Of a DNA stretch of 64,000 nt, positions 1-53,079 are shown piece by piece (position 1 is the stretch's first letter; each line of letters opens with the position of its first letter). The translations under genes were made by a program, and so were the position numbers. The notes beneath the pieces are model-generated. The model was not told the DNA's origin, ran no database searches, and was given only the letters and a program-made list of their open reading frames with translations. Source of the DNA: Pocillopora verrucosa (lineage: Eukaryota; Cnidaria; Anthozoa; Scleractinia; Pocilloporidae); contig NC_089323.1 in assembly GCF_036669915.1 (NCBI RefSeq), positions 18,092,587-18,156,586 of the forward strand, in the 5' to 3' direction.

Positions 1-3000
1 AACTGTATTCCTCTGCATGAGCTCTTAATTTGCATTCTGAAATTCCAAGATAAGATGTTAAAATACAATAATTATTGCATTACTACAAGCAATTATTTAA
101 TATGATACTTGTAAACTTAAAAATGCGAATACCATTGCTTAGAATTGTTTAAGAGGGGTTTAATCAATGTTTGAAAATAAAAATTAACTTTTCCTGTCTG
201 CTATTAAACAAAGCATTTGACATTCCCTACGTTATCCTAAGATCAGAGAATTACCTGCAAACTATGCAGAATTCCCCCACCATATGTTGATGGCCTAAGC
301 TATTTATTTTATTATTAAAAAGTGAATAATGTGCTGTAATTTCCAGTAACTTCTCCTACAAATAATAATACACCACTAACCAACTATCCATACTTGCTCT
401 CAATGGAAGAGAGATAAAATACATGTATAAATATTGAGATCTCATGAGATACAGAAAATACATTTAAAACATTGCAAATCATAATTACAGCATGTGTATT
501 CACCAGTAATTAACTTCCATTTCAATCTACAAGTTTTAAATGTATTTAATATTGTTATACATTATGTAAGTATTACATGAAAATTTGACACCAAAACAAA
601 CTGATTAAACACTCACTTTGCCATATTCCAAGCTAGGTTATCCTTCCTACAAATCTCACCCATACTTGGAAAATGGTTGATTTTCTTTAGAGAGGAGACA
701 AAACAGTAAGAATTAAATTATTCAGTTATTATAAAAGAAGTATTGAATAAATTTGTGAAAATGTATATGTATAAGATACAGGCTATGTGAGTGTTTATTT
801 CTTTGTATGAAGGTATCCTGTACATTGATTTGTCTAGATTCCCACAATATCACATATATATATATAACAAAAATTTATCATACCTAAAAAGATTTTAGTT
901 CTATAATTTTTTCAACTGGCACTAATGAATCACTCCAAATGAGGAAACTGCATGTAGAGAAAGTCATTATTGAAGAGAGAAAAATCATATTTATCAAATT
1001 GATTAAAAACTATGGCTTTTAAGATAGATGGATGTAAAAAAATAATGAGTGACTGACATTTTATTTGTACATGTAACACTACATCCTCCATCAGGTTACT
1101 TTGAAGCAAAATAATATTATTTACATGTATAAAGTTTTCCTATCACTGTTAACTCACCTGTTTGAGTCATCATCCCTTACAAGATACATTCCACATTGAA
1201 GACAAACTTTTCTAACTGCAAGGGAGAATTTTTATAATGAAAAAACATTGTTATGAGATAATTCCAAATTTCAGATATACAGTAATTCCTTGAAAAGTAT
1301 CAGAAGCTGAATACATATTCATATGAGTTATGATCTCACTTTGCTTTTGATTCACTCAAATACTTTTTCAGAAAATTTGCATCATCCTCTCCCCCAATCA
1401 GAAGTAAAACTAATTCAGTCCCAACTAATATCCCATTAAATGTCATTCCAATATTGCTTAAAAGCTTTTTCATGGGTGTTTTTTTTAAAACAGAGTTTAA
1501 ATTCTTTTCTTCGTAGAAGCTGCTTAAACAGATGTTAGTTAATTTAAAATTTAGTGCATTGAAATTAAAAGTTGGTGATTAGATGGATCCCATAGAAAAT
1601 TAAGTTTTTCAGTTCTCTGTATCTGATTTTTATTCGATTATAAACCTCTTGTTTAACTTAACATGTTTTACTAGTGTGAATAGGATATAAATCAACTGCA
1701 TTTTGTTGGGCTTTAGTCACCATCTTCTTGTTGTGTTGTCAGTTCTTGGTGGTCCTAAGTGATATGTTCTTTTTTTTTATGACTAGCTATTGGGATTACT
1801 TTGGTTGTGATTACACTGATTGGAAAAGTACTCTTAAAGTGATTTTGCTGTTGTAATATTGTCCCTCTCTGAAAGGAACTTTACTGAGAAGGGCGTTCAA
1901 GACCTGGGGTTGGAGGGAGAGGGGGGGGGGGCTCAATTAAGAGAGATTACATTAACACACACATGTACATGTGCACAAACATGTGAAGAAAAGAACACAA
2001 TTATTTCAACAAATAAAAAATGAATTTTTCTAAATGCACATGCATACAGATCTAAATCAAATAAAGCCAATAAGTTTGTGATCCTTCAGGCTAGTTTGTG
2101 TCTGCAAGCTTATTTTTATTGCCTTAGTAATAACTAAGTCGACTCTTCAACGGTCCATTGTGGATGGTAACAGCATACACCAAAAGTGTTAATTATCAAC
2201 ATTAAGTCTGTGGACGCGTGACTACAATGTAAACATGCATAATTGGCAACATAACGCTTAATATTTTAAAGCGTTAAAAATTTTGTATTAGTCTTGGTTG
2301 AAGAAATGTGCGTCTGATCAATCTAAGCGATGAAGTTGACTATAGAACGCCTCAAAAATACTTCTTGAGCGCGCATCACAGTCTAGGGACAAAGAAGTAA
2401 TTAAGCTCTTATGAAACCATGTCGATAATTTTAAACCACAGATTCAAAGAAACAATGATGACGATTATTTTGCATCAAAAGATCAACGTTCCCTTGTTAG
2501 TTCCAACAATTAACGAGAGCGAAACGAAGCACGAAAATTAAGTTATTTACTTGTCGTACTTTAAACCTCAAAATATATGTGTAACGATACGATAAAACTG
2601 CACAAACATATCTTACACTTGTAACTTTGGTAATCTTCCACGTACAAGAAGAACAAATGTAACCAACCTACCTCGTGGAAGTATGACCATGTACAACTAC
2701 CTAAAGCCCAAAATAAGTTGTAATTTTGACTTACCAACATCGTACTTAGTTGCAGCTAAATTGGCCGTTACACGGCGTTTCTTTTGAGGTTTCTTCTTGA
2801 TAGAATTGTTTACTGTTTGCTTGCGAACGTGGTTTGTTCGAGCCCGTACCATACTTCTTGTCTGTTCCAAGTTTTCTTCACATTCGTCGGCCAAAGATGC
2901 CGCATACTCACTTTCCCTTCCTTGATTTTTACAAAAGTTGTCAGCAGTGCTTAAAGCAAGTAATTTAAGGTTGTCTTTGGTCAAGACAGACCTACTTTCA

Positions 3001-3119
3001 TTGAAACCATGGCTGCTGTCTTCCGTGGTTACAGAACCCAAAGGCGTTCGAGACGACGATGGAATCTCCGTGGTCAAATTGTCTGTGCTCATGATTATGC
3101 CGAAACTCGTCCTTTCCAC
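1..3119 (-). pseudogene. Tubulin tyrosine ligase-like (TTLL) gene, 5' exons, copy A, with premature stop
   Basis: TTLL enzymes add glutamate or related residues to tubulin tails. Five minus-strand exons are seen: 3119-2735, 1215-1158, 947-884, 684-617 and 36 to beyond the window start. Exon 1 encodes a Ser/Thr-rich N-terminus and a KKKPQKKRR basic patch, then TANLAATKYDV. Exon 2 continues VRKVCLQCGMY. Exon 4 encodes KINHFPSMGEICRKD, close to the conserved NHFPGM-EICRKD block of the TTLL6/TTLL13 type, and exon 5 carries a TWVLPAKY-like TTLL block. Donors and acceptors are canonical and phases agree for exons 1-4. Exon 3 ends in TAG (884-886 on the plus strand) where copy B has CAG, so the frame breaks at the splice junction. 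Exons 4 and 5 also look one base out of frame in both copies. The remaining exons lie left of the window. It is called a pseudogene because of the stop; a sequencing error cannot be excluded. Confidence 0.7.
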
Positions 3120-3533
3120 TCATTATGAACACATTGCAAGGCTGAAATCATAAAATCTGATGTCTCCTGGAAAGTGATTTGGTCGCAGACGAGGATTTGT
3201 GCGCCTGTATGCAGAACTTTTGTGTTAGTGAATTTCTATCACAGGTGTAGCGTGACAGAATTACCATAGCTACCGTAGCCTGCTTTCGAAACTGCATTGA
3301 ACTCATTTACAACTTCCATATTTGGAAATAGGGCCCCCCCCCCCACCTAAATTGCATTGCACTTATATTTCAACTCCGCTATGTAGAGCTCGACTCCTTC
3401 GCCATATATCAAATCTCTGCTCAAAAATGGGATAAACAGTGTTTTCCAAGTACAACCATTTGTAGTCTTCTTATGTTCATTACGGCTGTTCCATTTGTGA
3501 CCGGAATGTCCTTTTCATCTTTTCAAATCGAAG
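3120..3533. promoter_or_regulatory. Divergent promoter region and probable non-coding first exon, unit A
   Basis: This short stretch separates the start of the minus-strand TTLL gene (3119) from a plus-strand exon ending in CAAATCGAAG with donor gtaagct at 3534. It is conserved, with small indels, at 25,544-25,942 in unit B. No frame through the plus-strand exon joins openly to the next exon in both copies, so it is probably 5' untranslated. The geometry suggests one bidirectional promoter serving TTLL and the NACHT receptor. The transcription start sites are not visible. Confidence 0.45.
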
Positions 3534-4050
3534 GTAAGCTGTATTGCGGAATGTAGCGTGCTTACTGAAATGAAGTTATGATGTAGTTACGACACTGATT
3601 ATTATACGTTTCCGATGTCGAAAGAATCTTGCGATAATCACAGCTAGCAACGTAGAACGTAATCAGTTTTTTCATAATGCCGATTTATTTTGAAATACGC
3701 CTTGAATTAGAGAGGAATTTGACGATCATAAAGGAAGGAATTCGAGAATCATTTACCCGTAATAGCTACAGTTTGATACTCCGCATAGTTTGCTTCTGTT
3801 TTCCATTATATTTGTTGATAGATCCTGAATATGGTCGATGGATTAGTCTTCGAACTCCAGAGCTACAACAAATTTTGACGTAATAACCATGACTACTAGC
3901 TTCCAGCTGACTTGTGCGTGCCTTCCATACAGTTTATCTGAACGCCGTATTGCAAATCGAATATGCAGTACTTGCATATTACATGTACACACAATGTATG
4001 CTATTTAGAAGATCTCTTACATGTATTTTTTCGTTTGATTTTTTCAGCAG

Positions 4051-4128
4051 ATTACGGTTGTGTTTGAGTTTAAGGGCTCCAAATTAAAGGTACTGCAAAG
4101 GCTTCCTGTGACGTCTAGGCTACAAGAG
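4051..4128 (+). CDS. Probable small 5' exon of receptor gene A
   Basis: The exon lies between acceptor ttttcagcag and donor gtaggc. It is open in the frame that joins in phase 0 to the glycosyltransferase exon at 7690 and would end KVLQRLPVTSRLQE. The copy B exon has an ATG at LPVMSRL; copy A has ACG there, so in copy A the first usable ATG may be in the next exon. Conservation in both units and good splice sites support an exon; coding status is uncertain. Confidence 0.4.
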
Positions 4129-4701
4129 GTAGGCATGCTTTATTCAGATGATTGAATAAGCCCTTTATCAAAGGTTCATGCTGTAAGTGATTGCACTGAG
4201 TTCTACCAACTTGTCCCACAGACGTGTTAAGTTTCAGTATTCCTGCATTGTATTTGGCAACAAGCACCACAATTAGCTTCCAAAGCAAGTACTTGCAAGA
4301 GTTATGTACTACCTTCAAAGGACATGAACCTTGTGCTTTAATAACCCATCATCCCTCTCGAATATAACATTGCATCACGCGTAGCATCGTATAGAGCATA
4401 CATGACATCTCCCTCTTTTTCACTTTTTTTTTTTGGTAAGAAAAACCTGAACCTGTTTTGACATGGAATGTTTTTAATGTTTAATTAAAAAATATAACCA
4501 CCACTGTCCATAGTTTGAGTGGTGACCTAAAGTTCATAGTCCTTAAGGTAAGCAGGCACCTTGACTAGTTGTTTGGAATGAATATGCATGGCCAGTTTCT
4601 GCACTTTTTCATGGGGTGATTCTGCAGAAGGGATTTGCTGGACATGCTAGAGTAGTATGAGTTGCTATGACTCTTTGGCTTTAGGGGTAGACTCTTGGAG
4701 T

Positions 4702-4968: not shown

Positions 4969-7689
4969 ACTAACTCAGAAAACCAGGATTCCATTTCAAC
5001 TTCTGGAACATACTAAACCGCTTTTCTGAGATTTTGACCACTAAAGTTTGAGCAATGGGAAACTAGTCAGGAATCTTTTGGAGGGGGGTCTTACATATTG
5101 TGAATTGAAGATTAATATCAACACCACCATTCCATGTGCTTTCACATTAAGCTGCTCATAGAAAGTTTGTAGGTAAATGCACAGCAAAGATCTTTATCTG
5201 TTATTTCACGCCATTTTTAAAGTCCTACACATTCTATATTTAGCCCTGTGGAGGAAGATTTTTCTAATAATGATCTTACTGATATTTTTGGCAAAAGTGA
5301 AGATGAGGATGATTTTGCCAGTTTCAGTTATACCCTACTAGATGACATTAACTAACAAAGTGATAATGACAAATCCAAGTTTCATAGTTTTTTCAACAAG
5401 AATCCTTGCACACTCAAACTGAATACTGGCAGGTGTTGGCTTATCCAGTTGAAGATCAGAGACAGTAACTATTAGTACATGTACCTGCAGAATCTGTTGA
5501 AAAAGTATCCTTGGACATTTTGTCCACAAACTCTGACTTTTATAACATGCCTTTCAAAATGCAGAATAGGTGATGTATTTAAACATTTCTTTCTTTTATT
5601 TCTCTATCTGTTTAGGATGAATGAACAGGGTGGTGGTCAGATGACTTGCTATTGGTATGTTCTGATATCATTAAAATTCTTGTCAATTGTCTGTTTTTGA
5701 GAGAAAATAATTTATTGTACAGTGCCTACTTTAAGATACATTTTTAATACCAAATTAAGGTGGGACTGGACACTAAATTCAGTGAATTTTGTCTCAAATC
5801 ATTAATAAAATATTTATTGACAAATTGGCCAGAATGACATGAAATTGTCAAGTTGGATATATAATTCTTCACATAATCTGTGAAGAATACATATTATTTT
5901 GCTCAGTGCCATGGAATTTTTGGAATTTCATGGAATAATAGGGGGTGTGTTTAAAGAGGCCATTTTGGAGAAAAACTTTTCTAAATCCAAGCCATTTTAA
6001 TACTTCTCAAAATGGTTTGCCAATTGCACAAAGACAATGTCAATAAAGATTTTTAGAGTAGTCTGCCAACTAATGTTCAATTTTGACAATTTTGCAATCT
6101 TATACTTTCTCGTTGGGAAAAGTTTTGGCAGTCTGTGGCATACTGTGCTATAAACATTTCTTTTCATATAAAGTTTTAGTTTGCAGAGATTCAGATCAAA
6201 ATTATAAACCCTCTTGTGATAATACCATTGCAATGGCAATTAATTTGCAAAAAGTGGCAATACATATACATGTCTGAGAACCCATGTTTTTCCTTTTTTC
6301 GGTCTCCATCTTGTGTAAGCCAGTGATATATGGCTGCAGCAGTTGAATGCAAAATAGCACGATATAGAAGGTCATTACTACCATCTTCATCTTGCCATGT
6401 TTCCTGAATAACCAATCAGAACATGAGACTATACACATTTGTGCTATCTGTAGCAACAACACCTACCCTGCTGTGTTGAGCCAATCTTGGCACCCTTGTG
6501 CCCTGTGCATTAGAAAGAAATAGAAAAGCAGACTTGGTTGTAGTGAAGAAATTAATGTCTCTAGGCTGGGAAGTAAAAAGAAGAAAAGTGCACCACCAGG
6601 AACCACAAAAATATGACATGGTGTGGGAAATAACAATTTTCAATCTAACACCAGGAACCGCAAAAATATGACATGGTGTGGGAATTTGTTAGTAACAACT
6701 TTCAATCTAACATGGTGTGACAAAACAAAGTGTGTGGTTATTGGCTCGCTTTATGGTTGTGGTGCATTCCAAAAATTGGAAATATCATCAAAATCCTTGG
6801 AATAAAAGGCTGAAAAAAATATTTGTGTTTTAGTCGCTTGGAAAGTGTAAGTAGTCAGCCACCTTAGAGCTCGATCTTTCCTGAGTTCAATCCATGATAA
6901 GATAGCACTTTGTTTTTCATTATCACATTGTTACTTAGGAAATGGATGTGTCAGAAATGTCATCTAAAGGAAATACCTTGTGAACAGCAAACACCATCAG
7001 AACAGGGTCTTATCTCTATTTACTGCAAGATTTGTCCTTGGAAACAAGACTTTCATTTCGAAAAGGGGCTGTTTTCCAACTGTCACATTTTGCAAATAGG
7101 AAACTTAAACAATGATCTCAAATATATGAGAAAATGAAGGCTTCTCAAAAAGGTCAAGTTAGCCTCTGGTATTGCCTTAAGTGGTCTCAACAACACTCTA
7201 AGAGGAAATAGAAAGCTTAAATAGACTCAGTGAACTCACATTTTGTATTGTTTTTTTCCCAGCATAATTTTTCAAAATTAAAAGCTTCCTGTGATGTCAA
7301 GGCTACAAAAGGTAGTAAGAGGAATTTAAATCTATTACAAATACCAACCTTTGATTTTGACAAAAACATTCATTTTCCCCCTTATTTTTTCACCTAAATG
7401 TTGGCAATGAAATTAGTCATTTACCACTTTCAAAGTGAGTTGAAGAGCAAGACTCTTTAAGGATCATTTTCACCCTCCTTGTAACTGTAATGGTTGTTAT
7501 CAGTGACAGTGATAGTGTAAATCTCTAAAGCAACTTAACATTTTCCTGGTTTAAATTTGTCTCAGTCTATATGTATCTGACTTTTTGGCATAGGATAAAA
7601 CTCAACATATTGAGCAGACAGCCACTATTGTGATTTATTATTGTTTTACAGCTTAATTTGTCAATACCATTCTTGTTTTGTTGTTGTAG

Positions 7690-8896
7690 GATTCCACCAT
7701 TCCTAGTGTAGCCTCTATGTCACTGGAAGACCAGGAGAGTAGGACACTGAAAGTCACTTTGCTAAGTAGTGAGTGGAGATCATCAACTGATGGGGACTTG
7801 TCAACCATCAACCGAGAGCTGGCCATCCAGTTAGCTAAACACCCCCATGTGGATGTTAGTATCTTGCTTCCAAATTGCAGTAGAGAGGACAGGAGCAGTG
7901 CTGAAAGTCACAATGTGAAGCTCATTGAAGCAGTTGAAATTCCTGGTGTAGAGCCAGTTCTTTGCCTGTTATATCCTCCAATACACCATACAATGCACTG
8001 TGTGATTGGTCATGGAGTTCAACTTGGCCGACTAGTTCCATTCATCAAGAGAAATCCAAATTACAGTCATTGTAAATGGATTCAAGTTGTTCACTCTGTT
8101 CCTGAAGAAGATGGAATGTACAAAAACATTTCAGAAGGAGAAAAAAGACAAAAAACAGAAATCCAACTCTGTAAAATGGCTGATCAAGTTATCACAATCG
8201 GACCCAAGCTGACAGAAACTTACAAGCGTTATCTTTGTTCAGTTAAACAAGAAGAAAAGGTTTTTGACCTTACTCCCAGCATTTTCTCTGAATTTTTGGA
8301 AGTGAGGCAAGCCACTGAAGAAAGAAGAAAATTCTGTATTCTTGTTATTGGAAGTGGTGACAGCTGTGAAGATTTCAATGTCAAAGGGTACGATATAGCT
8401 GCCAAAGCAATTGCTAGGTTGAAAGATGAATCCTACCAACTCAAGTTTGTCTGCCCAGCTGGAGGAAAAGGTGATAGTGTAGCAAAAAAGTTGCTCCGAC
8501 GTGGCATTAGTCGTAATCAGCTTATTGTTCGCAGCTTTGATGATAGCAGAAAAGTGCTGGCTGACTTATTCTGTGAAGTGGATCTTGCAATAATGCCATC
8601 CAGGACAGAAGGTTTTGGAACAACAGCTCTGGAAGCATTATCTGCTGGTCTGCCTGTACTTGTCAGTGGTAATTCAGGACTTGGAGAAGCTCTGAAGAAA
8701 GTGCCTTTAGGCTCACAGAGTGTGGTAGACTCTGAAGATCCTAAAGGCTGGGCTAGAGAAATCAAGCGTATTCGTCAGAAAGAGAGAGAAGTGCGACTTT
8801 CAGAGTCAAGATTTCTACGTGAAAAGTATTTGGAGAAGTATAGCTGGGAGGAGCCTTGTAAGAGTCTTGTGATAAAGATGAGGAACCTTCTCTTTG
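7690..8896 (+). CDS. Exon: GT4-family (glycosyl transferases group 1) domain, gene A
   Basis: The exon encodes about 400 residues (open from acceptor ttgttgtag; first ATG 7717) with a GT-B fold pattern. An N-terminal half has LSTINRELAIQLAKHP, GHGVQLGR and WIQVVHSVPEE; a C-terminal nucleotide-sugar half has KGYDIAAKAIARL and PSRTEGFGTTALEALSAGLP. The Glu-x7-Glu pair typical of retaining GT4 enzymes is present (codons at 8608 and 8632). The donor is TTTG/gtaaat at 8897, leaving phase 1. Reading through the donor reaches a stop at 9012, which could represent a short isoform. Substrate is unknown; the domain could also act as a ligand-binding module. It is clearly more diverged from its unit B counterpart than the NACHT exon is. 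Confidence 0.8.
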
Positions 8897-11800
8897 GTAA
8901 ATTTTACTTACACTTAAATGTTACAGCCTTCACTTGTCTAATAACTGATAAACCGGGATATTGGTTAAAGTTAAATCAGCCTTGTGTCAACTTGGACCTA
9001 CGGTTACTATAAATTGTTTAAAGACCTGAATCAAAAAAATAGTTAAAAATGGTAAATTATAACATAATTGTTATGTTTCTTCTTACTCCATATGCCATGA
9101 TTTTGTCAGCCACCTGTCATGTACATGACTGTATAAGAATAAAGTACTAATCATTAAGTTGATTTTCTTTTAGGTGGGAGTGAACAAGTCATCCGTAGTC
9201 TTCAACAGTGGCAACAGAATGCCAGTAGTTGTAAGATCAGCAGCAATACAGACCCACTCTCAGACTTTAAGAGAAAGGGCTATAGAATTTCTAACAATCC
9301 AGGGTCAGGAAATTGTATGTTTTATGCCTTGTCAGAGCAACTGGAGGTTGTCAAAAGAGTAAAGATCCATCATTTTGAATTAAGGCAGTCCTTAGTTCAG
9401 TATCTAAGAGAGCACCCAAAACTGGTGAGTATTTGGTAAAGTACATATGATGTCTAGGACAGATATTGCAAATGTATCATGTGCTCCACATTTAAGTTAA
9501 ATGTAAGGAACTATTATTGGGAAATTTTCAAGGCTTTGATCAGGGAAAAAAATCAGTGTGTGTAATACATGAAGTTGAAGTTGACATGATTAAAAAGGAC
9601 AACTTGTCTTTGTATCATTACAATGTCTTTCTTTCTTGTTTTTCTTATTTTAACTTATTATAGAACAACTGTGGGAAGTATAATGCTGACAAGTGAACTT
9701 GTTTATAATCATTCATTCAAATTTATCCTTTTTTGCTATTATTTAAAGATTGGATTTGGTCATTGTAAAAATTACTCTATCTAATATTATACACAGGGAG
9801 CACTATTAAGGACTACTGAGCCTAGCAACTAAAGAGTCTTGTGTTTGTCTTTGAACACTTTTGAAGTTAATATTTCTTATATGAAAATATTATAATATTG
9901 AGTCATTACTAGACTAGCTGCTCTATTACTATTAATATTACATGTTATCTTGTTGGACTTTCTTTTAAAGGTGGATGGAACAGATCTGTTTCACTTTGTT
10001 GATAGACACACAACATGGGATGGTTACTTAACAGACATGGAACAAGATGGCACTTGGGGTGATCATGTGATTCTCTGGGCTGCAGCAAACTGTTATCAAA
10101 TAGCCATTCATGTGATTAGTAGTCTTCCAGGCCACAGTGAGGTAATTATCAACCCAGATTGTTCATTTGACCAAAGCAAGCTTCTTGTACTGGGACATGT
10201 CCATGAAGTACACTATGTCAGCCTTCAGCCCTTGCAAGGTAAGGCTTAGAACATAACACATTTAAAAATTGGCCTATCCGTGAATTTTGCAAACAAGATA
10301 TTTCAAATGTTATAACTGAGTGCATTCTACAACTGTATTTTAGTCCTATACAGCTACAGGCCACACATGTCTGTACGAATTACCATTTCATAAAAGCCTG
10401 CAGAGCTGATTTTGATTTATCGGTGATGTAAACTTCTGCAGGCTGGTGCATGCAAATTATATAGTGAGGCAAGTTGTTGGTATTCCATTCATTTCATAAT
10501 TCATCACCACATTGTGAGTAATCAGAAAAGTGTGTAATGTCAGTGAAATCATTTGTCATTGAGTGACATTAAGAGATGATGAACCAACTTCCTCATAAGA
10601 CAAGCAGAAAATAATGTTACTCGATTGTTAATACTGTAGGTAATGGTAATTAACTATGTTTTTTAATTGTAGAGTTTTAAGTGCGGTTAAACTCTTTTTA
10701 CCAGATGCTGTAGCAAAGAAGTCCAGGCAAGTTTCAAATGAAAAGGTTACACGAAGTTCGTCCTCTGTTGTAACTCAGTCTGTGAAGCGCCCTAGAGGTA
10801 AATTTCATCGTAAGTCCTACAATCCAGCGCTTTTTAAAACCTTTCACCCCTTTTTTTTCTTTTTTTTGCTATTAAAGAACAGCTATATGAACAAGCCTTC
10901 TGTTCTCTTTGAAGGAGCCATTCGCTGCTCTTTCCATTTTAATCTCGGTGATTAAACTTTTTTTACCAGATGCCGTAGTAAACAAGTCCAGGCAATCTTC
11001 AAATAAAGAGGTTAAACAAAGTTCGTCTTCCGTTGCCACTCAGTCTGTGAAGCGCCTTAATGGTAAATTTCATCTTAAGTCTTACAACGCCATTGGTTGG
11101 AAATCCAGCGCTTTTTCAAAACTTTCCACCCTTTCTTTTTGCTATTAAAGAACAGCTGCACGAAGCCTGCATATAACAAGCCTTCTGTTATCTTTGAAGG
11201 AGTCATTCGCTGCTCTTGCCATTTTAATCCTGGTAATAAAACTTTTTTTTTTAACAGATTCTGTATTAAAGAAGTCCAGGCAAGCTTCAAATGAAAAGGT
11301 TAAACGACGTTCGTCCTCCGTTGCCACTCAATCTGAGAAGCGCCTCAAAGGTAAATCTCCACCATTTTTTTTTTTTTTTGCCATTAAAGAACAGCTGCAT
11401 GAAACCTGCATATAACAAGCCTTCTGTTATCTTTGAAGGAGTCTTTCTCTGCTCTTGCCATTTTAATCTTGGTGATTAAACTTTTTTTTTACCAGATGCC
11501 GCGGTAAACAAGTCCAGGCAAGCTTTAAATGAAAAGGTTAAACGACGTTCGTCCTCTGTTGCCACTCAATCTGTGAAGCGCCGTATAGGTAAATTTCATT
11601 TTAAGTCTTACAACGCCATTGTTTAGAAATCCAGCGCTTTTTCAAAACTTTTAACCTTTTTTTTTTGCTATTAAAGAACAGCTGCATGAAGCCTTCACAT
11701 AACAAGCCATCTGTTATCTTTGAAGGGTCATTCGCTGTTCTTGCCATTTTAATCTCAGTGATTAACGTCAACGTTTATTCAAAGACATGTGCGTTCAAGA

Positions 11801-14800
11801 ACGAAGTATGTTGTTTACTTGCAGGTTCCGATCATTGTCTAATTGTGGAACACCTTGAAGGTGAATACATCAGACGCTCCAATGTAAAACCACTGCTGTG
11901 GGATAGCGACATCCAACTACCTATTGATGAAGTCTACACAAGGTTGCAAATGAAATGGAGAAAGAAGGCGTACTTTCAGCTAACAGAGAAGGAGGTTCAC
12001 ATGTATGAAGTTTTCAAGCCTGCTAGGGAGGGTGAAAAGGGCGCCAGAATGGTACTTGTAGAAGGAAACCCTGGGATTGGGAAGACTACGTTTTGCCTTA
12101 AAATTGCAAGTGATTGGGCCAAAAAATTAGTACCAGTAGAGTTTCACTTCCCCATGTTTCAGTTGTTGTTTCTTCTGAAATGCTGTGATATTCACGAAGA
12201 TACTAAAGACATAGTACAAGCCATCGATGAGCAACTTCTGAATGATGACATTAACAATAAGGAAGAATTTTTGGATTACATCAGAGATGGTAAGAATCAG
12301 GACGAGATTCTTTTAATTCTGGATGGTCTTGATGAGTTACCAAAAGCATCAGAAAATGTCGTAAATAGGCTATTTAGAAGAAAAGTTTTCTCGCGCTGTT
12401 TTATTTTGGCCACCTCACGCGAAGAAAAAGGAATCGATGTCCGGCGGCGCTATGACTTTGATACACTTTTGCAGATTAAAGGGTTCACCTCAGAGGACGC
12501 TACAGATTACATCAGAAAGCATTTTAAAAGCGTTGATCCACAAAATTTGTCAAAAAGCGAGAGGCTCATTGAAACTGTTCAAACAAATACTCACCTAAGT
12601 GTGCTAAGGAGCAATCCGTTGAATCTACTTCTCTTGTGCGTTGTCTTTGAAGACTTTGAAGGGGAACTACCATCTAATCGCACTAAGCTTTATCAGATTA
12701 TTTTTCGATGCTTGTTGAGGCGATATTGCTCCCGAAATGGCTTGAACGTTCATCGGAATGCCGACGAAGCCCTAGAGAATCAATTTAAAAAGTCCCTACT
12801 TGTGCTAGGGGAGTTAGCGTGGAATTGTCTTCGAGAAGACCGCCGTTCGTTTTCGGAAGAGGAACTGGACAAGTTAGAACATTCGAGGACCCGTGTGAGA
12901 AGATTTCCAGCTATCAAATTGGGCCTTGTTTTCATGGAAGCCAGTTCAAGGCCAAGTCAGGAACCAAGACATCAGTGTCATTTTCTTCACAAAACATTTC
13001 AAGAGTTTTTAGCTGCCTTTTACCTAGCCAACCACTTGTCAAGGAGACGACTTAACCTTACTGATCATTCTGTTTTCCGCAAGGAAAGTATGTTAGGTAG
13101 ATACAGACAAGTATTTTTCTTTTTAGCTGGCATATTAGGCATGGAAAGACGGGTGTTTTTCAAAGAGGTTGTAACGATTTTAAGAGAAGACTTCGTGTGG
13201 TGCTACTCGCACCGAGAGTGTGAGTTCTTTCTTGAGCTTTTTCAAGAGAGTGGTGCTGCAGATGATTTAGGCAAAGTTGCGTGCTCCCTTATTCCATTAC
13301 CAAATGTTTTGAAGTTAAATCAGAAACAGCTGTCTTGGTTGAAACTTATACGATATGTGTACGAAGGCGCCATACTCGAAGGTGATGTGGCATCAGTGCA
13401 GCTTACTAAACTGAGCCTGTCGGGCGTGCAGTTTTTCAGTAAAGACAATGTGAACGATCTCCATGGAATTCTCGGAAGCAGTCAAACTCTCACAGAGCTT
13501 GTCATTGGTAATATCGAGAACATGTCCCCTGGAGTTGCAGATCTGTTCGCTGAGAGTTTGTCGTCAAGCACTTCACTAAGAACAGCTACGCTACGACTGT
13601 TTGACGTGAGTACTGAGAGGTTCGCCAGTAATTTTAGCACCTTGCTATCGACTCTCTCGCAATTGGAATGTCTTTCGCTTGAAGTCTTTGGTGTTCTGAA
13701 CAACACTGCTGCACAAGCCGTGAAAGCGTTATTCAAATCATCGCTAATTTCTCTCGCCTTCATTGTTCATGGGGATCAGGATGACCGTTTAATGTCGATT
13801 GTTAGTGAAGGACTTGCAGAGGAAACCGCAGTGGAGTCTCTTAGTTTTGTTGTTTATGAAAGAGTTAGTAACCCTGGAATCGCAGCACTGCAGAAAGGTA
13901 TTCTGCAAAATAGAACTTTGCACTCTTTAGAGTTAAAGGTTTACGGAGATATCCCAGGAGCGTGGATGGCAGCTGTTGCTATCGTACTGGCAGCCAAGAA
14001 ATCATGGAAGTCTCTTGTTATTCATCCAAATGTATGCGGGAAAATTAAATATGAAGCAGGTTTGCTGCCCTATCCTATTCTAGGTGATGCCCCACTAAAG
14101 TCATTAACCGTGAACGTCTGTGGTGAACTGAGCGTTCACAGCTTAAAAGCCCTTACAGATTTTTTTAAGGAAAGTTCGCCACTATCTGGTTTGCACTTGA
14201 ATGTCCGAAGTAAACAAAGCAATGAAGTCGTGGATTGTCTGGTAGACTATTTTCTGGCGAACAGCTCACTACCCTCACGCAGTATTATTTACCTTAGTGG
14301 TGAAATCACAGGCTATGAAGGAACTGCTCTTCAGAGATTAGATCTAGAACATTCTGTCTCAGTGTACTCGAATGGTCTTGATGAGGATCACTTTCCAAGT
14401 GGTTTTCATACTCTCGCCAATTTTTCGTCAGCGTCGGACACGTTTTTAGTTGACGGGAAAACTGCCACATACTTTGAGGTCATTACACTATTAAGCCGTG
14501 CGTCAACAACCATGTTCAATCTCACAGTTAATCTTCACGCTGATGCGAGGGAAGACTGGGCAAAGGGTGTGGGTAATGGCTTGGCGAACAGCAGATCATT
14601 AACTACATTCAGTCTCACAGTTAACAGTCCCGTTGACGTGATGGGAAACTGGGCCAGAGATGTGGGTGATGGCTTGGCGAAAAGCACATCATTGACTACA
14701 TTCATTCTCACAGTTAAAAATTACGTTGACGCGATGGGAAACTGGGCCAGCGATGTGGGTGATTGCTTGGCGAAAAGCACATCATTGACTACATTCAGTC

Positions 14801-15129
14801 TCACAGTTAACGATTACGTTGACGTGATGGGAAACTGGACCAGTGGTGTGGGTAATGGCTTGGCGAAAAGCACATCATTGACTACATTCAGTCTCACAGT
14901 TAACAATTACGTTGACGCGATGGGAGACTGGGCCAGTGGTGTGGGTAATGGCTTGGCGAACAACAGATCATTAACTTCGTTCAGTCTCACAGTTAACAAT
15001 CACGCGGGTGAAAAGGGACACTGGATGAAGGATATAAGCGAGGGCTTGGCAGAGAACGGTTCTTTAACGACGATAAGAGTTGCATTTAGCTTGTACGGTG
15101 AGGACAGAATTCGCCAAACGTTTAGGTAG
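7690..15129 (+). CDS. Composite receptor gene A: GT4 glycosyltransferase - OTU protease - linkers - NACHT - LRR-like repeats
   Basis: This is a proposed NLR-type intracellular receptor. Its exons are 7690-8896, 9174-9424, 9971-10238, 10705-10797, 10970-11062, 11258-11350, 11496-11588 and 11825-15129, the last ending at a TAG. Intron phases agree at every junction (1, 0, 1, 1, 1, 1, 1), and no internal stop interrupts the joined frame. Domains in order are a GT4-fold glycosyltransferase, an OTU cysteine protease, four near-identical 31-residue basic linkers, a NACHT ATPase and six 31-residue LRR-like repeats. NACHT-LRR proteins sense danger or microbes and oligomerise. An N-terminal glycosyltransferase domain on cnidarian NLRs is known to me; the additional OTU is not. 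The alternative is two neighbouring genes (GT-OTU and NACHT-LRR). The upstream start is uncertain: either the ATG at 7717 or one in an earlier exon. Confidence 0.65.
9174..9424 (+). CDS. Exon: OTU cysteine protease, N-terminal half with catalytic Cys, gene A
   Basis: The exon lies between acceptor ttttag and donor gtgagt, entering in phase 1 and leaving in phase 0. It encodes GYRISNNPGSGNCMFYALSE followed by QLE, the OTU signature around the nucleophile Cys (TGT at 9314-9316), then a helix ending in LRQSLVQYLREHPKL. The usual DGNC has Ser in place of Asp (SGNC). Asp at this point is common in OTU deubiquitinases, so activity is uncertain, but Cys and Asn are kept. OTU proteins remove ubiquitin chains. 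No counterpart is seen in unit B. Confidence 0.75.
9971..10238 (+). CDS. Exon: OTU cysteine protease, C-terminal half with catalytic His, gene A
   Basis: The exon starts after tcttttaaag in phase 0 and ends at CAAG/gtaagg in phase 1. It encodes W-GYLTDM, then GTWGDHVILWAAANCYQIAI, the typical second OTU block (GxWGD plus an Ala-rich helix), and ends with HEVHYVSLQPL. The His codon at 10211-10213 fits the catalytic His-Tyr of the family. Together with 9174-9424 it gives an OTU core of about 170 residues, slightly long for OTU but with all main motifs in order. Confidence 0.75.
10705..11588 (+). CDS. Four tandem 93-nt linker exons (10705-10797, 10970-11062, 11258-11350, 11496-11588), gene A
   Basis: Each exon is exactly 93 nt, begins and ends in phase 1, and encodes a 31-residue Ser/Lys/Arg-rich segment of the type DAV-KKSRQ-SNEKVKR followed by SSSVATQSVKR. 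All four have acceptors (accag or aacag) and gtaaat donors, and all are free of stops. The array arose by duplication of a unit of about 240-290 bp that includes intron sequence with CTTCTGTTATCTTTGAAG. Because the exons are symmetric, any number can be included without shifting frame. The function is unknown: possibly a flexible basic hinge or nuclear targeting signal. Unit B has only one such exon (31,984-32,076). Confidence 0.7.
11825..15129 (+). CDS. Exon: NACHT ATPase with LRR-like repeats, gene A
   Basis: This large final exon (acceptor ttgcag, phase 1) encodes about 1,100 residues. The frame is open further left, but that part is intron. The Walker A motif GNPGIGKTT is at 12064-12090 and Walker B LILDGLDELP has its first Asp at 12322. 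ILATSREEKG fits the sensor-1 region, and LHKTFQEFLAAFYLA fits the helical domain after NACHT. The middle third is LRR-like with irregular repeats. The C-terminus has six 31-residue repeats (about 14503-15060) of the pattern SLTTFSLTVN----MG-WA--VG-GLAKS, resembling ribonuclease-inhibitor-type LRRs. No transmembrane segment or signal peptide is seen, so a cytosolic sensor is likely. The protein ends at a TAG at 15127, slightly beyond the copy B stop. Confidence 0.85.
14503..15060 (+). repeat. Six 93-bp coding repeats (LRR-like), gene A
   Basis: Units begin at about 14503, 14596, 14689, 14782, 14875 and 14968, each 93 nt or 31 codons. They share TCATT-ACTACATTCAGTCT and differ mainly in the residues after the TVN motif. 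Unit B has 13 such units at 34,994-36,202. Confidence 0.85.
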
Positions 15130-17706: not shown

Positions 17707-18685
17707 GAAATTATATTTTGTGTTAGGGAAAACTTAGCGCAATTTTGATGACTGATGTATGACCAGAGAGGTGCGTAGAAGGTGTGTGTGGGGAGAGATC
17801 GGGGTGATACTGATATGTCAACAGAAATAGGTAGTCTTGCTGTGGTTTGATTGGAAGGCCCTTTTGTTAAGAACTTTGAGTAATCGCGCTTTGGTCTTTA
17901 AGTAGGCTGGAATACCGTATCAAAGAAAAGAGCGGAAATCAAACCTAGCACTGTAGTATAGAACCTCTTTTACCCCCGTGTAGTTCGTGACCACCCTGGG
18001 TGTAACCACAATAGTTCCAAAAGTGAAAGTCCTAGCTCTTCCCATCTAAAGAGGCCCCAAATCTGAAATACTCCTTATTCCCAAGATCTAGGAATTGGTT
18101 CTATCTACTGACCATACCTTTCTTTATTGGTTAGTCGCGAGAATTTATGTTAGTTGGACCGTGCGGAGTTCAATTCGGTTTTAAATCAAACGTGTGATTA
18201 GAAGTGGGATTTCAAAGTAGATTTGATACTCACGAGTGTGAGTCCCAATAGAATAGGACAACACAAATTAATCAAAACTATGAAGAAATTAGAGAACCAA
18301 AATACTCATCCGTTTGACATTTTCATAGATGTAAACATATTTGACTTTTTCCACGAAAAACTGTACCTAAAAGTTGAGCACTTTCGAGAAACTGTACCCA
18401 GAAGTCTGTGTAACAACGCGCAGGTAGCGTGAATTGTTCAGTGACACAAGTATGACCTTTAAACTGTCCTATCAAACTGTCCAGTCACAAGCATGATGGG
18501 TACACTGTTCCATTTGTGCTCCAATTGTATTGCTGATAGCCAATCACGTTCAAGAGATTTTTGATAGCTCTGACAATAAAGTTAAGTAAAGGCAATAGTT
18601 TACAACTATCTTCATTCTCATTACTGGACTGACTGATTTGTGTCAAAAATGTGAGATAAATTACTCCATGATTAATCATGCAAGA

Positions 18686-18944
18686 AAATGGGCTGGCTGT
18701 GCATCAGCACTAAAATGGGCTGGCTGCGCATCAGCACTAAAATGGGCTGGCTGTGCATCAGCACTAAAATGGGCTGGCTGTGCATCAGCACTAAAATGGG
18801 CTGGCTGTGCATCAGCACTAAAATGGGCTGGCTGTGCATCAGCACTAAAATGGGCTGGCTGTGCATCGGCACTAAAATGGACTGGCTGGATGTGCATCAG
18901 CACTAAAATGGGCTGGCTGTGCATCAGCACTAAAATGGGATATA
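18686..18944. repeat. 27-bp minisatellite, about 9 copies, unit A
   Basis: The repeat unit is AAATGGGCTGGCTGTGCATC followed by AGCACTA. One unit carries a 4-bp insertion (GGAT). The period is a multiple of three, so frames are open on both strands, but there is nothing else to suggest coding. It lies just beyond the 3' end of the secreted Cys-rich gene. Unit B has about 6 copies at 41,694-41,860. Confidence 0.9.
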
Positions 18945-19067
18945 CTGCTGTTCTTTTTATCTCTAAAGATACATGTTCGCATTGTGAGATGCTAAATAAG
19001 AAAAGAAATAATCACTTCGGGGAAAATTCATCAAATTTATTTGCACAGTACAGAGCTTATATTATCA

Positions 19068-19704
19068 TTAAAGTACATCGTAACATTTGTTGTTCTTGTA
19101 ATTGTAGCAGTGGTTTTCAGCTTCACATTGTTTAGCTGACAAGCGCAGGTACTTTATCTTGGCTCCCCTGTACTGATAACACACCGAATCTAGCAAATAA
19201 AAATGACACAATAAGCAAAGCAGTTGCTGCCTGATCAACTTTACTAGCACGCGTTTGTTGTGAGCATTTTCAACTTTAGAAAATCAACTCCTTTCAGAGC
19301 TCTTAAATGAGCTTTCGGTGTTTAAGCGAAGCACAGCCACATTCGTTTATCGGTGCTAACAACTCAAAACGAGCCTCACTAATAATGATGGTTATGACTG
19401 CGTGATGTTCAACTCATATGGGGGGGTAAAATTTAGTCTTAAAGATCAATTTAAGTCTTAAAGATCAAGGTTTCAAGCCCGTCTGATTTTCTGCTCTACA
19501 GAGATGGCTCTTAGTTGATAATTTTCCTACCTTTGCTGTAGTAGCATATGGCTGTCATCATATTGCGCCTTCGTGTATCCCACCCATCCGACCAAAAGCA
19601 TCTATCTGGTTTACTCTCACAGTCCTCTTGACTGGTATGCCATGGTGCAGCCATAACTGACATCTGTAATACATACTCACCAGGAGTCACGCATCCGCTG
19701 GGTA
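19068..19704 (-). pseudogene. Orphan 3' exons of the secreted Cys-rich gene (duplicated fragment, unit A)
   Basis: Two minus-strand exons, 19704-19531 (174 nt, phase 1 to 1) and 19189-19068 (122 nt, ending TGA), match exons 3 and 4 of the complete gene at 41,980-44,654. Splice sites and frame are intact, and an AATAAA signal lies just downstream (19036-19041). The first two exons, including the signal peptide, are missing: the duplication ends near 20,049, inside what would be intron 2. It is expressed only if a new 5' exon has been captured. Confidence 0.75.
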
Positions 19705-19919
19705 CTAAAAAGGGTAAAAATCATAATTTATACCAGTAAGATTTTCAAAGTACAGTATCCATTCACCTGGTTTTGTTAAAACACACAATACCAGAGTGCT
19801 TTTCGTTCGAGTCAGTGTCGCCCCCCACCCGAAAATAAATACAGATACTGTTTGTGGGATACTGTATGTGGGATGCTTGTCACAAATTTAGGTGAGGAAT
19901 GCTCTGGATCAACATCTAG

Positions 19920-19990
19920 TTCTCTGTAGCTCAGTGGTAAAGCATAGGAGCATAAATCTGAAGGACTGGGTTCCATTCCTTATAAGGATT
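19920..19990 (+). mobile_element. tRNA-derived SINE head, unit A
   Basis: CTGTAGCTCAGTGGTAAAGC resembles box A of a tRNA promoter and GGGTTCCATTCC resembles box B, at tRNA-like spacing. The cloverleaf is imperfect, so a SINE relic is more likely than a working tRNA. The same sequence is at 42,820-42,890. Confidence 0.55.
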
Positions 19991-20049
19991 CGGATGGTTC
20001 CTCTGATCTACACCCGTAACTCCCTTCCCCCCCACCCTCAAATAAAATA

Positions 20050-21482
20050 AAATAACATGAACTTCCGTAGAATTTGGGTTTATTTCATATTAGGCTATAG
20101 GAAGCAAAAAAATGTATTTTTTAAGGTTTACCTCAAAATGGTGATCTGCAAAATGGCGGCTGTTCATACATACGCAGCCAAAAAACGGAAATAATATACT
20201 TCCCAAAATGTAGATATGGCTGTATTATTTGAACTTTTCTTGTTCCAAAAATTAATTTTCCTCCAAATATTTACTCAGATGATTTCAGGCGATAACAAAT
20301 TAAGAAAACAAGAGTTGAGTGAACTTGACTTAAAATAATTTCAAACGTCATGGAACTTTATCACAGAGCAACCGTTGAATTTTAATCATTAACAAACATT
20401 GCGCAATTTTTACAAACCCCTATCATGGGTACACCCTCTATTAAGCAGACACTTGGGAATGTCCTGAGGGCGTCCACTTAATTGAGGTTTCACTGTACTA
20501 TCATAATAGTAAACGTGATATTTGTGAATGTCCTTACTTTGTCAAGATATTCCTGGACCACAATCTGCTCATGAGATAGGATTCTATCTCCATTTCACAC
20601 CAGAGATATCCTAAAATTAGGACAGAACTACATGTATTAGTCATCAGATTCATCATGAAGGTACCAAAAGAAACTAGTTAGTATGCATGCATGTACATAA
20701 TTATAAGTTGTCAAAAAAAATTCAATTTTCACTTAGATTAAAGCAGAAGGAAGCTTTAAATTCATGTACATGTGATGGAAGGCTTCACCAGTACCCCTGA
20801 TTCACTGAAATATTTCAGGACAGTACCAACAACTGTGCAATAACAAATTGGATTAAGATTAATGTTAATAATATTATAGCACAGGGCTCAGTTGTTTCAA
20901 GGCTCATTAAAACTAGCCAGGGTTAAATTTTAATATGGTATTTTTTATTCCTTCATTCAATTATATTAAAATATCCCATATTTATTTCAGGGCATTCAAT
21001 CATCAAATTTCAGGCAAAGAGAATTATTATAATACTGAATTTTCTTTTAAAGCTTTCAGATCTCAAATCAGATTTCACACTAACCCTGGGTGATATCTTA
21101 ACTAGCTTTAAACAACCTAGCTCTGTACTTTTCAGATATTTTACAAGCACAGTGTGTTGGAAATTTAAGAAAAAAACAAAAAAAATTTAATTTTAATTAA
21201 TAATGAATATATTGAAAATGATCGATGGTGAAATTCAAGATTTTAAATTTTTGTCAAACTTACCCATTTCCCATAGCTCCATTTGCTGGTTTAACAATGA
21301 AGGTTTTGGGTTTGTTTCTTTTTTTTCAGTTCTCTACAATATAGCCTTGAAATGCAGCATTACTGATACAGTGAGAATGGGCAGTAAGCTAAGGAAAGTA
21401 ATTCACTTTAATGTAATTACACTGATGTGGTCATATGACGAAAAAAAAAATCATGGTGCTTTTCTTTTGATCCCTCTTACCA

Positions 21483-21992: not shown

Positions 21993-24900
21993 TTGGCAGG
22001 GAGAACCCAAGTTTGTAGAACAAAACTGTATTCCTCTGCATGAGCTCTTAATTTGCATTCTGAAATTTCAAGATAAGATGTTAAAATACAATAATTATTG
22101 CATTACTACAAGCAATTATTTAATATGATACTTGTAAACTTAAAAATGTGAATACCATTGCTCAGAATTGTTTAAGAGGGGTTTAATCAATGTTTGAAAA
22201 TAAAAATGAACTTTTCCTGGCTGCTATTAAACAAAGCATTTGACATTCCCTACGTTATCCTAAGGTCAGAGAATTATCTGCAAACTATGCAGAATTCCCC
22301 CACCATATGTTGATGGCCTAAGCTATTTATTTTATTATTAAAAAGTGAATAATGTGCTGTAATTTCCAGTAACTTCTCCTACAAATAATACCACACCACT
22401 AACCAACTATCTATACTTGCTCTCAATGGAAGAGAGATAAAATACATGTATAAATATTGAGATCTCATGAGATACAGAAAATAAATTTAAAACATTGCAA
22501 ATCATAATTACAGCATGTGTATTCACCAGTAATTAACTTCCATTTCAATCTACAAGTTTTAAATGTATTTAATATTGTTATACATTATGTAAGTATTACA
22601 TGAAAATTTGACACCAAAACAAACTGATTAAACACTCACTTTGCCATATTCCAAGCTAGGTTATCCTTCCTACAAATCTCACCCATACTTGGAAAATGGT
22701 TGATTTTCTTTAGAGTGGAGACAAAACAGTAAGAATTAAATCCTTCATTATTATAAAGGAAATATCAAATAAATTTGTGAACATGTATATGTATAAGATA
22801 CAGGCTATGTGAGTGTTCCTTTCTTTGCATGAAGGTATCCTGCACACTGATTTGTCTAGATTCCCACAATATCACATCTTATATGGTCTACTCAGACAAC
22901 TTAATTAGTAACAAAAATTTATCATACCTGAAATGATTTTAGTTCTATAATTTTTTTAACTGGCACTGATGAATCACTCCAAATGAGGAAACTGTATGTA
23001 GAGAAAGTCATTGTTGAAGAGAGAAAAATCATATTTATCAAATTGATTGAAAACTATGGCTTTTTAGATAGATGTGTAGTTATTTATTCATAAACCTTCA
23101 AGTCTCTGATAAAGAGGCAAATAAAATTAGGAAGTGTTTGTCTTTAAAATGTATATATAGCAAAATAGTGTAAGAATTGGAAACCTAATGAAGAGGAACA
23201 GGATGTAGTCAGGATCTAGCTAGGAGGTTCATTTAGGAGCTACAGGGTTGAAAAGAAATGAAAATGTACAAACACAGCATGGTATTATTTAGCTACCAGG
23301 TGGCAGCATCTATTCCTTGTGTAGCTGGGGGATATGGTAAGACAAAACCAAATGAATTTTCCCATAAAGTTTACACAAATAGGCAGTTTGCAGTCAAGAT
23401 ACCCTACCCTTGTGGAAAATGACAACAAAATGTGAAATACCACAACTCCACATAATTGCAGATATAATATTTAGCATGCTGGGTGCAAAAAAAAAATAAT
23501 CAGTGACCGACATTTTATTTGCACTTGTAACACTACATCCTCCATCAAGTTACTTTGTCAGCAAAATTATTTACATGTATAAAGTTTTTTCTATCACTGC
23601 TAACTCACCTGTTTGAGTCCTCATCCTTTGCAATATACATTCCACACTGAAGACAAACTTTTCTAACTGCAAGGGAGAATTTTTGCAATGAAAAAACATT
23701 GTTATGAGATAATTCCAAATTTCAGATATACAGTAATTCCTTGAAAAGTATCAGAGGCTGAATCCATACTCATATGAGTTATGATCTCACTTTGCTTTTG
23801 ATTCACTCAACTACTTTTTCAGAAAATTTGCATCATCCTCTCCCCCAATCAGAAGTAAAACTAATTCAGTCCCAACTAATATCCCATTAAATGTCATTCC
23901 AATAATGCTTAAAAGCTTTTTCATGGGTGTTTTTTTTAAAACAGAGTTTAAATTCTTTTCTTCATAGAAGCTGCTTAAACAGATGTTAGTTAACTTAAAA
24001 TTTAGTGCATTGAAATTAAAAGTTGGTGATTAGATGGATCCCATAGAAAATTAAGTTTTTCAGTTCCCTGTATCTGATTTTTATTAGATTATAAACCTCT
24101 TGTTTAACTTAACATGTTTTACTAGTGTGAATAGGATATAAATCAACTGCATTTTGTTGGGCTTTAGTCACCATCTTCTTGTTGTGTTGTCAGTTCTTGG
24201 TGTTCCTAAGTGATATGTTCTTTTTTTTATGACTAGCTATTGGGATTACTTTGGTTGTGATTACACTGATTGGAAAAGTGCTCTTTAAGTGATTTTGCTG
24301 TTGTAATATTGTCCCTCTCTGAAGGGAACTTTACCGAGAAGGGCGTTCAAGACCTGGGGTTGGTGAGGGGGGGAGCTCAATTAAGAGAGATTACATTAAC
24401 ACATACACGTACATGTGCACAAACATGTGAAGAAAAGAATACATTTATTTTAACAAATAAAAAATGAATTTTTCTAAATGCATGTGCATACAGATCTAAA
24501 TCAAATGAAGCCAATAAGTTTGTGATCCTTCAGGCTAGTTTGTGTCTGCAAGCTTATTTTTATTGCCTTAGTAATAAATAAGTCGACTCTTCAACGGTCC
24601 ATTGTGGATGGTTACAGCATACACCAAAAGTGTTAATTATCAACATTAAGTCTGTGGACGCGTGACTACAATGTAAACATGCATAATTGGCAACATAACG
24701 CTTAATATTTTTAAGTGTTAAAAATTTTGTATTAGTCTTGGTTGAAGAAATGTGCGTCTGATAAATTTAAGCGATGAAAGTACTTCTTGAGCGCGCATCA
24801 CAGTCTAGGGACAAAGAAGTAATTAAGCTCTTTTGAAACCATGTCGATAATTTTAAACCACAGATTCAAAGAAACAATGATGACGATTATTTTGCATCAA

Positions 24901-25543
24901 AAGATCAACGTTACCTTTGTTAGTTCCAACAATTAACGAGAGCGAAACGAAGCACGAAAATTAGGTTATTTACTTGTCGTACTTTAAACCTCAAAACATA
25001 TGTGTAACGATACGATAAAACTGCACAAACATATCTTACACTTGTAACTTTGGTAATCTTTCACGTACAAGAAGAACAAATGTAACCAATCTTCCTCATG
25101 GAAGTATGACCATGTACAAGTATCATTGAGCCCAAAATAAGTTGTAATTTTGACTTACCAACATCGTACTTAGTTGCAGCTAAATTGGCCGTTACACGGC
25201 GTTTCTTTTGAGGTTTCTACTTGATAGAATTGTTTACTGTTTGCTTGCGAACATGGTTTGTTCGAGCCCGTACCATACTTCTTGTCTGTTCCAAGTTTTC
25301 TTCACATTCGTCGGCCAAAGATGCCGCATACTCACTTTCCCTTCCTTGATTTTCACAAAAGTTGTCAGCAGTGCTTAAAGCAAGTAATTTAAGGTTGTCT
25401 TTGGTCATGACAGACCTACTTTTATTGAAACCATGGCTGCTGTCTTCCATGGTTACAGAACCCAAAGGCGTTCGAGACGACAATGGAATCTCCGTGGTCA
25501 AATTGTCTGTGCTCATGATTATGCCGAAACTCGTCCTTTGCAC
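21993..25543 (-). pseudogene. TTLL gene, 5' exons, copy B, with premature stop in exon 1
   Basis: The exons correspond to copy A: 25543-25159, about 23,696-23,639 (similar to 1215-1158), 22991-22928, 22707-22640 and 22059 to about 21993. The core encodes LIWSDSSVPV, then ELKSFQ joined to KINHFPSMGEICRKD, and in exon 5 a YSFVLQTWVLPAKY-like TTLL block. Exon 3 is intact here (CAG where copy A has TAG). Exon 1 has AAG changed to TAG (25217-25219), ahead of the conserved TANLAATKYDV, so translation would stop after 108 residues. An extra segment of about 410 bp (23,075-23,485) sits in intron 2. With later exons not found, this copy is probably a non-functional 5' fragment. Confidence 0.7.
23075..23485. 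other. Segment of about 410 bp present in unit B, absent from unit A
   Basis: Unit B sequence following AGATAGATG diverges into an extra block and rejoins unit A homology at the A-run before ATCAGTGACCGACATTTTAT. The unit A junction is near 1031-1040. No clear terminal repeats or coding sequence are visible, so insertion in B or deletion in A are both possible. Confidence 0.6.
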
Positions 25544-25942
25544 TCATTATGAACACATTGCAAGGCAGAAATCATAAAATCTAAAGTGTCCTGGAAAGTG
25601 ATTTGGTCGCAGACGAGGATTTGTGCACCTGTATGCAGAACTTTTGTGTCCGTGAATTTCTATCACAGGTGTAGCGTGACAGAATTACCATAGCTACCGT
25701 AGCCTACACTGCATTGAAGTCATTTACAACTTCCATATTTGGAAATAGGCCCCCCCCCCCCACCGATCATATTTCGATTCCACGCGCTGTACAGAGCTCG
25801 ACTCCTTTGTCATACATCAAATCTCTGCTTAAAAATGGGATAGACAGTGTTTTCCAAGTACAACCGATTTGTAGTCTCCTTATGTTCATAACGGTTGTTC
25901 CATTTGTGACCGGAACGTCCTTTTCATCTTTTCAAATCGAAG
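25544..25942. promoter_or_regulatory. Divergent promoter region and probable non-coding first exon, unit B
   Basis: This is the counterpart of 3120-3533. It lies between the TTLL start (25543, minus) and a plus-strand exon ending CAAATCGAAG with donor gtaagc at 25943. Conservation of this donor in both units supports a real 5' exon of the receptor gene. Confidence 0.45.
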
Positions 25943-41860: not shown

Positions 41861-41947
41861 ATATACTGCTGTTCTTTTTATCTCGAAAGATACATGTTCG
41901 CATTGTGAGATGCTAAATAAGAAAAGAAATAATCACTTCAGGGAAAA

Positions 41948-41953: not shown

Positions 41954-41979
41954 TGCACAGTACAGAGCTTATATTATCA

Positions 41980-52994: not shown

Positions 52995-53079
<85 letters not shown>

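Follow-up and report, generated by a model that had tools for sequence, protein, structure and literature searches.

The question raised by this window, a 64,000-bp stretch of the genome of the coral Pocillopora verrucosa (NC_089323.1, positions 18,092,587 to 18,156,586; coordinates below are those of the window), is whether a glycosyltransferase (GT) domain, an OTU deubiquitinase domain and a NACHT domain with leucine-rich repeats (LRRs) belong to one gene, as proposed in a first-pass annotation of 7690–15129, and what kind of receptor such a gene would encode. As the annotation had claimed, the proposed exons joined into a single open frame, which had 1800 codons, one stop, at its end, and GT..AG borders at the introns between these exons; the frame was identical over all 1800 residues to residues 7–1806 of an NCBI gene model, P0001 (1806 residues, named ‘uncharacterized protein [Pocillopora verrucosa]’ and, in UniRef, isoform X2). 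The exons were correct as proposed, but a start exon at 7294–7311 had been overlooked. At the level of gene models there is good support for one P. verrucosa gene that runs GT-OTU-NACHT: the match to P0001 is exact, the domains follow each other in the same way in two further P. verrucosa models (P0003, P0004) and two from Oculina (P0024, P0025), and the linker is found both with and without a preceding OTU. We judge it somewhat more probable than otherwise that P0001 is a NOD-like receptor (NLR) in which a degenerate GT is followed by an OTU acting as a gated effector, produced by insertion of the OTU and a subsequent exchange of front and back ends. The predicted gene consists of the following features.

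7294–7311, forward strand: start exon MSRLQK, the first six residues of P0001 (ATG...AAG, then a gtagta donor)
7690–8896, forward strand: GT4-conflict glycosyltransferase-like exon, 402 residues (Pfam PF20706, E = 2.3e-70); EX7E motif kept, Gly-Gly (GG) loop and Arg of GRGD altered
9174–9424, forward strand: OTU exon 1 with SGNC (Pfam PF02338 across the joined GT-OTU protein, E = 2.3e-12); Cys in 50 of 50 aligned sequences
9971–10238, forward strand: OTU exon 2 with HYVSL; His in 133 of 134; the intron before DGTDLF has the same position in single-exon relatives
10239–10477, no strand: interval with the putative breakpoint, or the edge of it, at which front and back recombined; homology with the tandem copy restarts at 10478 (blastn), matching 31756
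10705–10797, forward strand: linker exon 1 (31 residues, phase 1-1), from the joined frame
10970–11062, forward strand: linker exon 2, from the joined frame
11258–11350, forward strand: linker exon 3, from the joined frame
11496–11588, forward strand: linker exon 4, from the joined frame
11825–15129, forward strand: NACHT and LRR-like exon (Pfam PF05729, E = 2.2e-22)
14515–15004, forward strand: 5.3 tandem copies of a 93-bp repeat that looks LRR-like by eye

With the OTU portion of the complete protein as query, 25 proteins were returned, 11 of which were rescanned with Pfam and the others classified by their listed domains (the window’s own protein was scanned in two pieces). Both GT and OTU were present in 21 of the 25, or in 22 when the partial P. 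meandrina protein P0028 is added, and GT preceded OTU in 22/22, although these are paralogs of a few species and not independent. The GT-OTU pair was N-terminal in five NLRs, C-terminal in 16 Roc proteins and present in one partial sequence. Three of the NLRs, all from Pocillopora (P0001, P0003, P0004), have the order GT-OTU-NACHT, and the two from Oculina (P0024, P0025) share it in the form GT-OTU-HEPN_DZIP3-NACHT-LRR, that is, with HEPN added and with a GT that groups with the Roc proteins. The 16 Roc proteins came from Stylophora, Pocillopora, Porites and Oculina, many of them with LRRs, one with TPR and some with neither; COR-A was present in all five rescanned GT-bearing Roc proteins, above the Pfam cut-off only in P0014. 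The OTU occurred without GT in 4/25 proteins (P0002, P0011, P0021, P0023), of which P0002 (Stylophora) reads OTU-OTU-Death-TPR-NACHT. The same OTU family was also seen joined to Roc-COR, Death and SPOC in P0011 (Oculina) and within a Stylophora protein named RNF213 (P0021). Among the best 120 of 1879 matches to the NACHT part, 11 list GT and NACHT (three being isoforms of one Oculina gene) and two of these 11 also list OTU; the others were mostly ENA metagenome calls, often of single exons and little informative. The annotation had regarded an OTU between GT and NACHT as a new receptor architecture. The arrangement itself holds, but it is no lone oddity: GT-OTU-NACHT belongs to a group of coral architectures that were already deposited as uncharacterized proteins.

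Hamada 2013 is reportedly the work cited for coral GT-NACHT-LRR receptors. Such receptors are described for Acropora in PMC12314368, PMC5013795 and PMC10236652; the clustered, fast-expanding family covered by the main text of PMC12314368 resembles the P. verrucosa gene in both respects and differs in that P0001 has an OTU module between GT and NACHT. In its main text, PMC8195603 (Kaur et al. 2021) makes the case that STAND NTPases and AP-GTPase/COR proteins, the latter with a variable C-terminal region, carry GT4 as an effector; P0001 shares with these systems a PF20706 GT4 on a switch and differs from them by the added OTU. Thirty-five Pfam partners of NACHT in 15 cnidarians are given in the main text of PMC8260672. 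The term ‘OTU’ is absent from the main texts of all five papers, and ‘deubiquit’ from that of PMC8195603; NACHT partners are tabulated in the supplements and figures that accompany PMC8260672 and PMC10236652, and OTU may be among these. No OTU-NLR fusion appeared in the titles or abstract starts returned by literature searches.

The window contains a second receptor gene in tandem, referred to here as copy 2, which has no OTU and whose exons at 28840–36259 join with one terminal stop.

26493–26510, forward strand: candidate start exon MSRLQE
28840–30055, forward strand: GT4 exon (joined frame; Pfam)
30774–30851, forward strand: small exon at the place of the OTU in copy 1; nearly the same peptide in the NCBI model P0167
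31984–32076, forward strand: single linker exon (joined frame)
32310–36259, forward strand: NACHT-LRR exon with 11.8 copies of the 93-bp repeat (joined frame; Pfam; repeat scan)

P0167 has, besides the small-exon peptide, the same type of linker and no OTU. Blastn homology between the two copies covered the GT exon, was then interrupted and restarted at 10478, just past OTU exon 2. The front and back ends of P0001 had different closest relatives: identity to P0004 was 86.6% in the GT and 85.9% in the OTU vs 53.2% in the NACHT, while identity to copy 2 was 60.6% in the GT vs 91.2% in the NACHT (92.6% for the NACHT of P0167). Between copies 1 and 2 the synonymous divergence (dS) was 1.61 in the GT, 0.077 in the NACHT part and 0.211 in the repeat part. 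P0003 likewise shares its front with P0004 and its back with P0167 and copy 2; compared with P0001, its OTU is 98.3% identical and its GT and NACHT about 92%. In approximately unbiased (AU) tests, the NACHT data rejected a clade of P0001, P0003 and P0004 (p-AU = 1e-66), and the GT data rejected a clade of P0001, P0003, P0167 and copy 2 (p-AU = 3e-42). On this sequence evidence the window gene is a chimera with a P0004-like front and a copy 2-like back, the two halves having different histories.

As separate observations, both receptor genes are carried by a ~20 kb tandem segmental duplication (1–4293 with 22024–26686; 17970–20052 with 41077–42946), whose best flanks are 91–94% alike vs only 67% for the GT exons. 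A possible OTU remnant in copy 2 was rejected, as the best tblastn match at E up to 50 was short, contained a stop and had an E of 0.19.

As for where the front end came from, the GT tree (30 rows, root not inferred; rows P0197 and P0256 are identical, as are P0253 and P0254) had a branch with support 100/100 that splits the Pocillopora receptors and GT-NACHT proteins without OTU from the Oculina receptors and Roc proteins, with P0235 of Stylophora nearest to the Pocillopora receptors (98/92). A single group of all five OTU-bearing NLRs was rejected on GT data (p-AU = 0.0004). This separation and this rejection make two assemblies of OTU-bearing NLRs, one in Pocillopora and one in Oculina, likely, albeit not proven, and suggest that corals built the GT-OTU-NLR combination more than once, via exon movement. 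AU groups were named after the trees had been inspected. The OTU test was run on 26 rows, leaving out six short proteins (P0027, P0029, P0030, P0031, P0038, P0046) that had been labelled Roco by default in the OTU tree and are not countable as such. In P0004, GT and OTU are followed by the linker EIRVTIPGRDKRP, and in P0235 the GT runs directly into a resembling linker, EIRSTTRIPGRDKRP; a gain of the OTU in Pocillopora appears the simpler reading, and its loss in P0235 is possible. Three results weigh against this history: a single OTU origin of the NLRs was not clearly rejected by the OTU tree alone (p-AU = 0.054), P0235, which stands for the site before the OTU came in, carries the label ‘partial’, and the nearest NACHT to that of P0004 was P0188, P0235 lying elsewhere in the same larger clade. 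In four single-exon relatives (P0079, P0095, P0135, P0136), the sequence just before DGTDLF or DGTELF was unrelated, so that the OTU intron has an identical position at other loci; this speaks for a move at the level of genomic DNA more than for retrocopying. By eye, the P0135 exon resembles that of the Porites protein P0019.

That GT and OTU were repeatedly assembled on switches of two kinds hints at a function common to both. A broader proposal, which we put forward only tentatively, is that corals possess a portable GT4-OTU effector pair used on NACHT and Roc proteins alike, rebuilt in Pocillopora by adding an OTU behind a GT from which part of the donor site was by then missing; this dead GT would pick the target, the OTU would edit ubiquitin when the receptor fires, and the ends would be reshuffled in the tandem array.

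The state of both putative catalytic domains bears directly on function. The GT match covers profile positions 3–385 of 385, and the domain retains the EX7E motif (EGFGTTALE), the His motif and the KG lysine. It has TDGD at the Gly-Gly loop and GSGD at GRGD, so that neither feature is retained; by analogy with other GT4 enzymes, we take the GG loop and the GRGD Arg to be positions of sugar-donor binding. Nine of the 30 aligned GTs, P0001 included, carry DGD or NGD where the GG loop would be, together with GSGD or GGGD for GRGD, and the remaining 21 retain GRGD, 20 of them with GG as well (P0025 has GR). The coral Roc-GT4-OTU proteins resemble P0001 in the GT-then-OTU pair and differ in carrying it at the C-terminus; their GT keeps GG and GRGD in the 15 aligned, unlike that of P0001. 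Receptors of Oculina and Stylophora without OTU share the altered GG loop and GRGD, so that, if the OTU was gained, the change would predate it. Lacking two usual donor-site features, the P0001 GT is less likely to be a working sugar enzyme than the annotation implied, and the idea of two enzymes in one receptor becomes doubtful.

In the OTU, the Cys of GNC, the His of HYVSL and a Ser in place of the Asp three residues before the Cys were all as first described. The aligned rows were drawn from all 25 matches of the OTU search and the best 120 of 414 of a second search, with many near copies among them. The window’s own OTU is included in the Cys count, from which the P0135 row was left out because it carries intron translation at that place (51 to 50 rows). 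An Asp at Cys-3 and an Asp or Asn at His+2 are usual, though not universal, in OTU deubiquitinases. An active enzyme is made less certain by the absence of Asp at Cys-3 in all 50 sequences (Ser in P0001) and by Val at His+2 in P0001 as in 130/134, which together leave the usual third catalytic residue not obvious. Judging from the alignment, the Ser is a family trait and no defect of the P0001 copy, and we rejected a degraded OTU unique to that copy because the change is family-wide. The best PDB matches were OTUD5 by profile (4.4e-5) and OTUD3 by single sequence (1.9e-5), both with Asp at Cys-3, unlike P0001; neither, to our knowledge, is part of an NLR. wMelOTU, which we take to be an active enzyme, has Asn at Cys-3 in the alignment, and a Rickettsia OTU with DGNC also carries HYV; neither residue change is therefore proof of inactivity.

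Outside sources of the OTU were sought with two short patterns, and both results are weak negatives: 16 stretches matched in viral_contigs with 0 relatives, and 29 in genome_contigs with one relative, from a Rickettsia metagenome-assembled genome (MAG), which at 30% identity was too distant for a donor. This bacterial relative, the only one found, is the end of a 1461-residue open reading frame (L001:113–4498) of a fly-derived Rickettsia MAG and has the DGNC and HYV motifs.

These residues bear on the possibility that the GT-OTU part is an integrated bait or reader, mimicking a host target or binding ubiquitin without any chemistry, and that the NACHT switch is set off when this part is interfered with. 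Membership in the GT clade without GG loop and GRGD Arg fits such a role, as do the missing Asp at Cys-3 and the Val at His+2 of the OTU. However, the OTU Cys and His are among its most constant columns (ranks 3 and 19 of 170, ties included), more so than a pure bait needs, and, given the Rickettsia and wMelOTU residues, neither change proves inactivity. We consider this explanation rather unlikely, though not negligible.

The nearest solved proteins over the NACHT part were, by sequence, NAIP (BIRC1), 5irl_A (named only ‘uncharacterized protein’) and NLRPs. It counts against calling P0001 an LRR receptor that no Pfam LRR match was obtained in its NACHT exon, where the C-terminal 93-bp units are LRR-like by eye. 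These coding repeats number 5.3 copies at 14515–15004 vs 11.8 at 35046–36147, a difference between the two receptors that possibly reflects a fast-changing sensing surface. A GGTAAR scan gave nothing useful.

The explanation that we favour, a gated OTU effector on an NLR, would run as follows. An OTU module of two exons, phase 1-1, would have been inserted after the GT exon and ahead of the linkers of a GT-NACHT-LRR gene, the state represented by P0004. Recombination in the post-OTU intron would then have joined this front to another linker-NACHT-LRR back, the state of P0001 and P0003. In the resulting receptor, the C-terminal repeats would sense a microbial or damage signal, upon which the NACHT would oligomerise, and the clustered N-terminal OTU would remove or edit ubiquitin, either that of host signalling proteins or that of the invader; binding or positioning would fall to the GT, which is probably a poor enzyme. 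We infer an OTU gated by NACHT, with the GT as a binding part, because the GT-OTU pair sits where effectors do, N-terminally in NLRs and C-terminally in Roc proteins. If the OTU is active, the receptor would carry its own deubiquitinase, with ubiquitin editing as its direct output instead of a means of regulating it. The locus would also offer a concrete case of a coral NLR array making receptors, by exon insertion followed by front/back exchange in an intron, which bears on how corals discriminate symbionts from pathogens.

Recombination in a tandem array could also have left a non-functional chimera, as the different ages of the front and back halves of the two tandem copies would allow. We regard this as improbable, given 1800 open codons, a ratio of non-synonymous to synonymous divergence of 0.18 in the GT against copy 2 (with dS near saturation), Walker A and B motifs kept by eye, and the near identity of the OTU of P0001 and P0003, which recent gene conversion would produce likewise.

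Returning to the single gene, the annotation had taken matching intron phases and a joined frame free of stops as its evidence. The phases are right (the GT exon ends in phase 1, OTU exon 1 in phase 0 and OTU exon 2 in phase 1), but they carry little weight by themselves, as each of the four basic/serine-rich linkers is a 93-bp, phase 1-1 exon, and the OTU pair likewise a phase 1-1 module, that could drop out or be added with the reading frame intact. It also speaks against one gene that the NCBI and Oculina gene models are all predictions and that a NACHT-only P. verrucosa model, P0175, starts within a linker-like stretch. Two neighbouring genes, GT-OTU and NACHT-LRR, fused by gene prediction, would agree with these points and with the modular exons, but are very unlikely in view of the same fusion in another genus (Oculina), the match of the post-OTU linker of P0004 to the post-GT linker of P0235, and the absence of Met from the four linkers of the joined translation, in which no Met follows the OTU until residue 43 of the NACHT exon.

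Elsewhere in the window, exon-like open frames were seen at 43060–43629 (reverse strand), 48869–49393, 50128–50685 and 50722–51684, one with a signal-like start by eye; none had a Pfam match at E 0.01. Minisatellite-like arrays at 18685–18939, 52340–53136 and 57700–58100 produce long spurious open frames.
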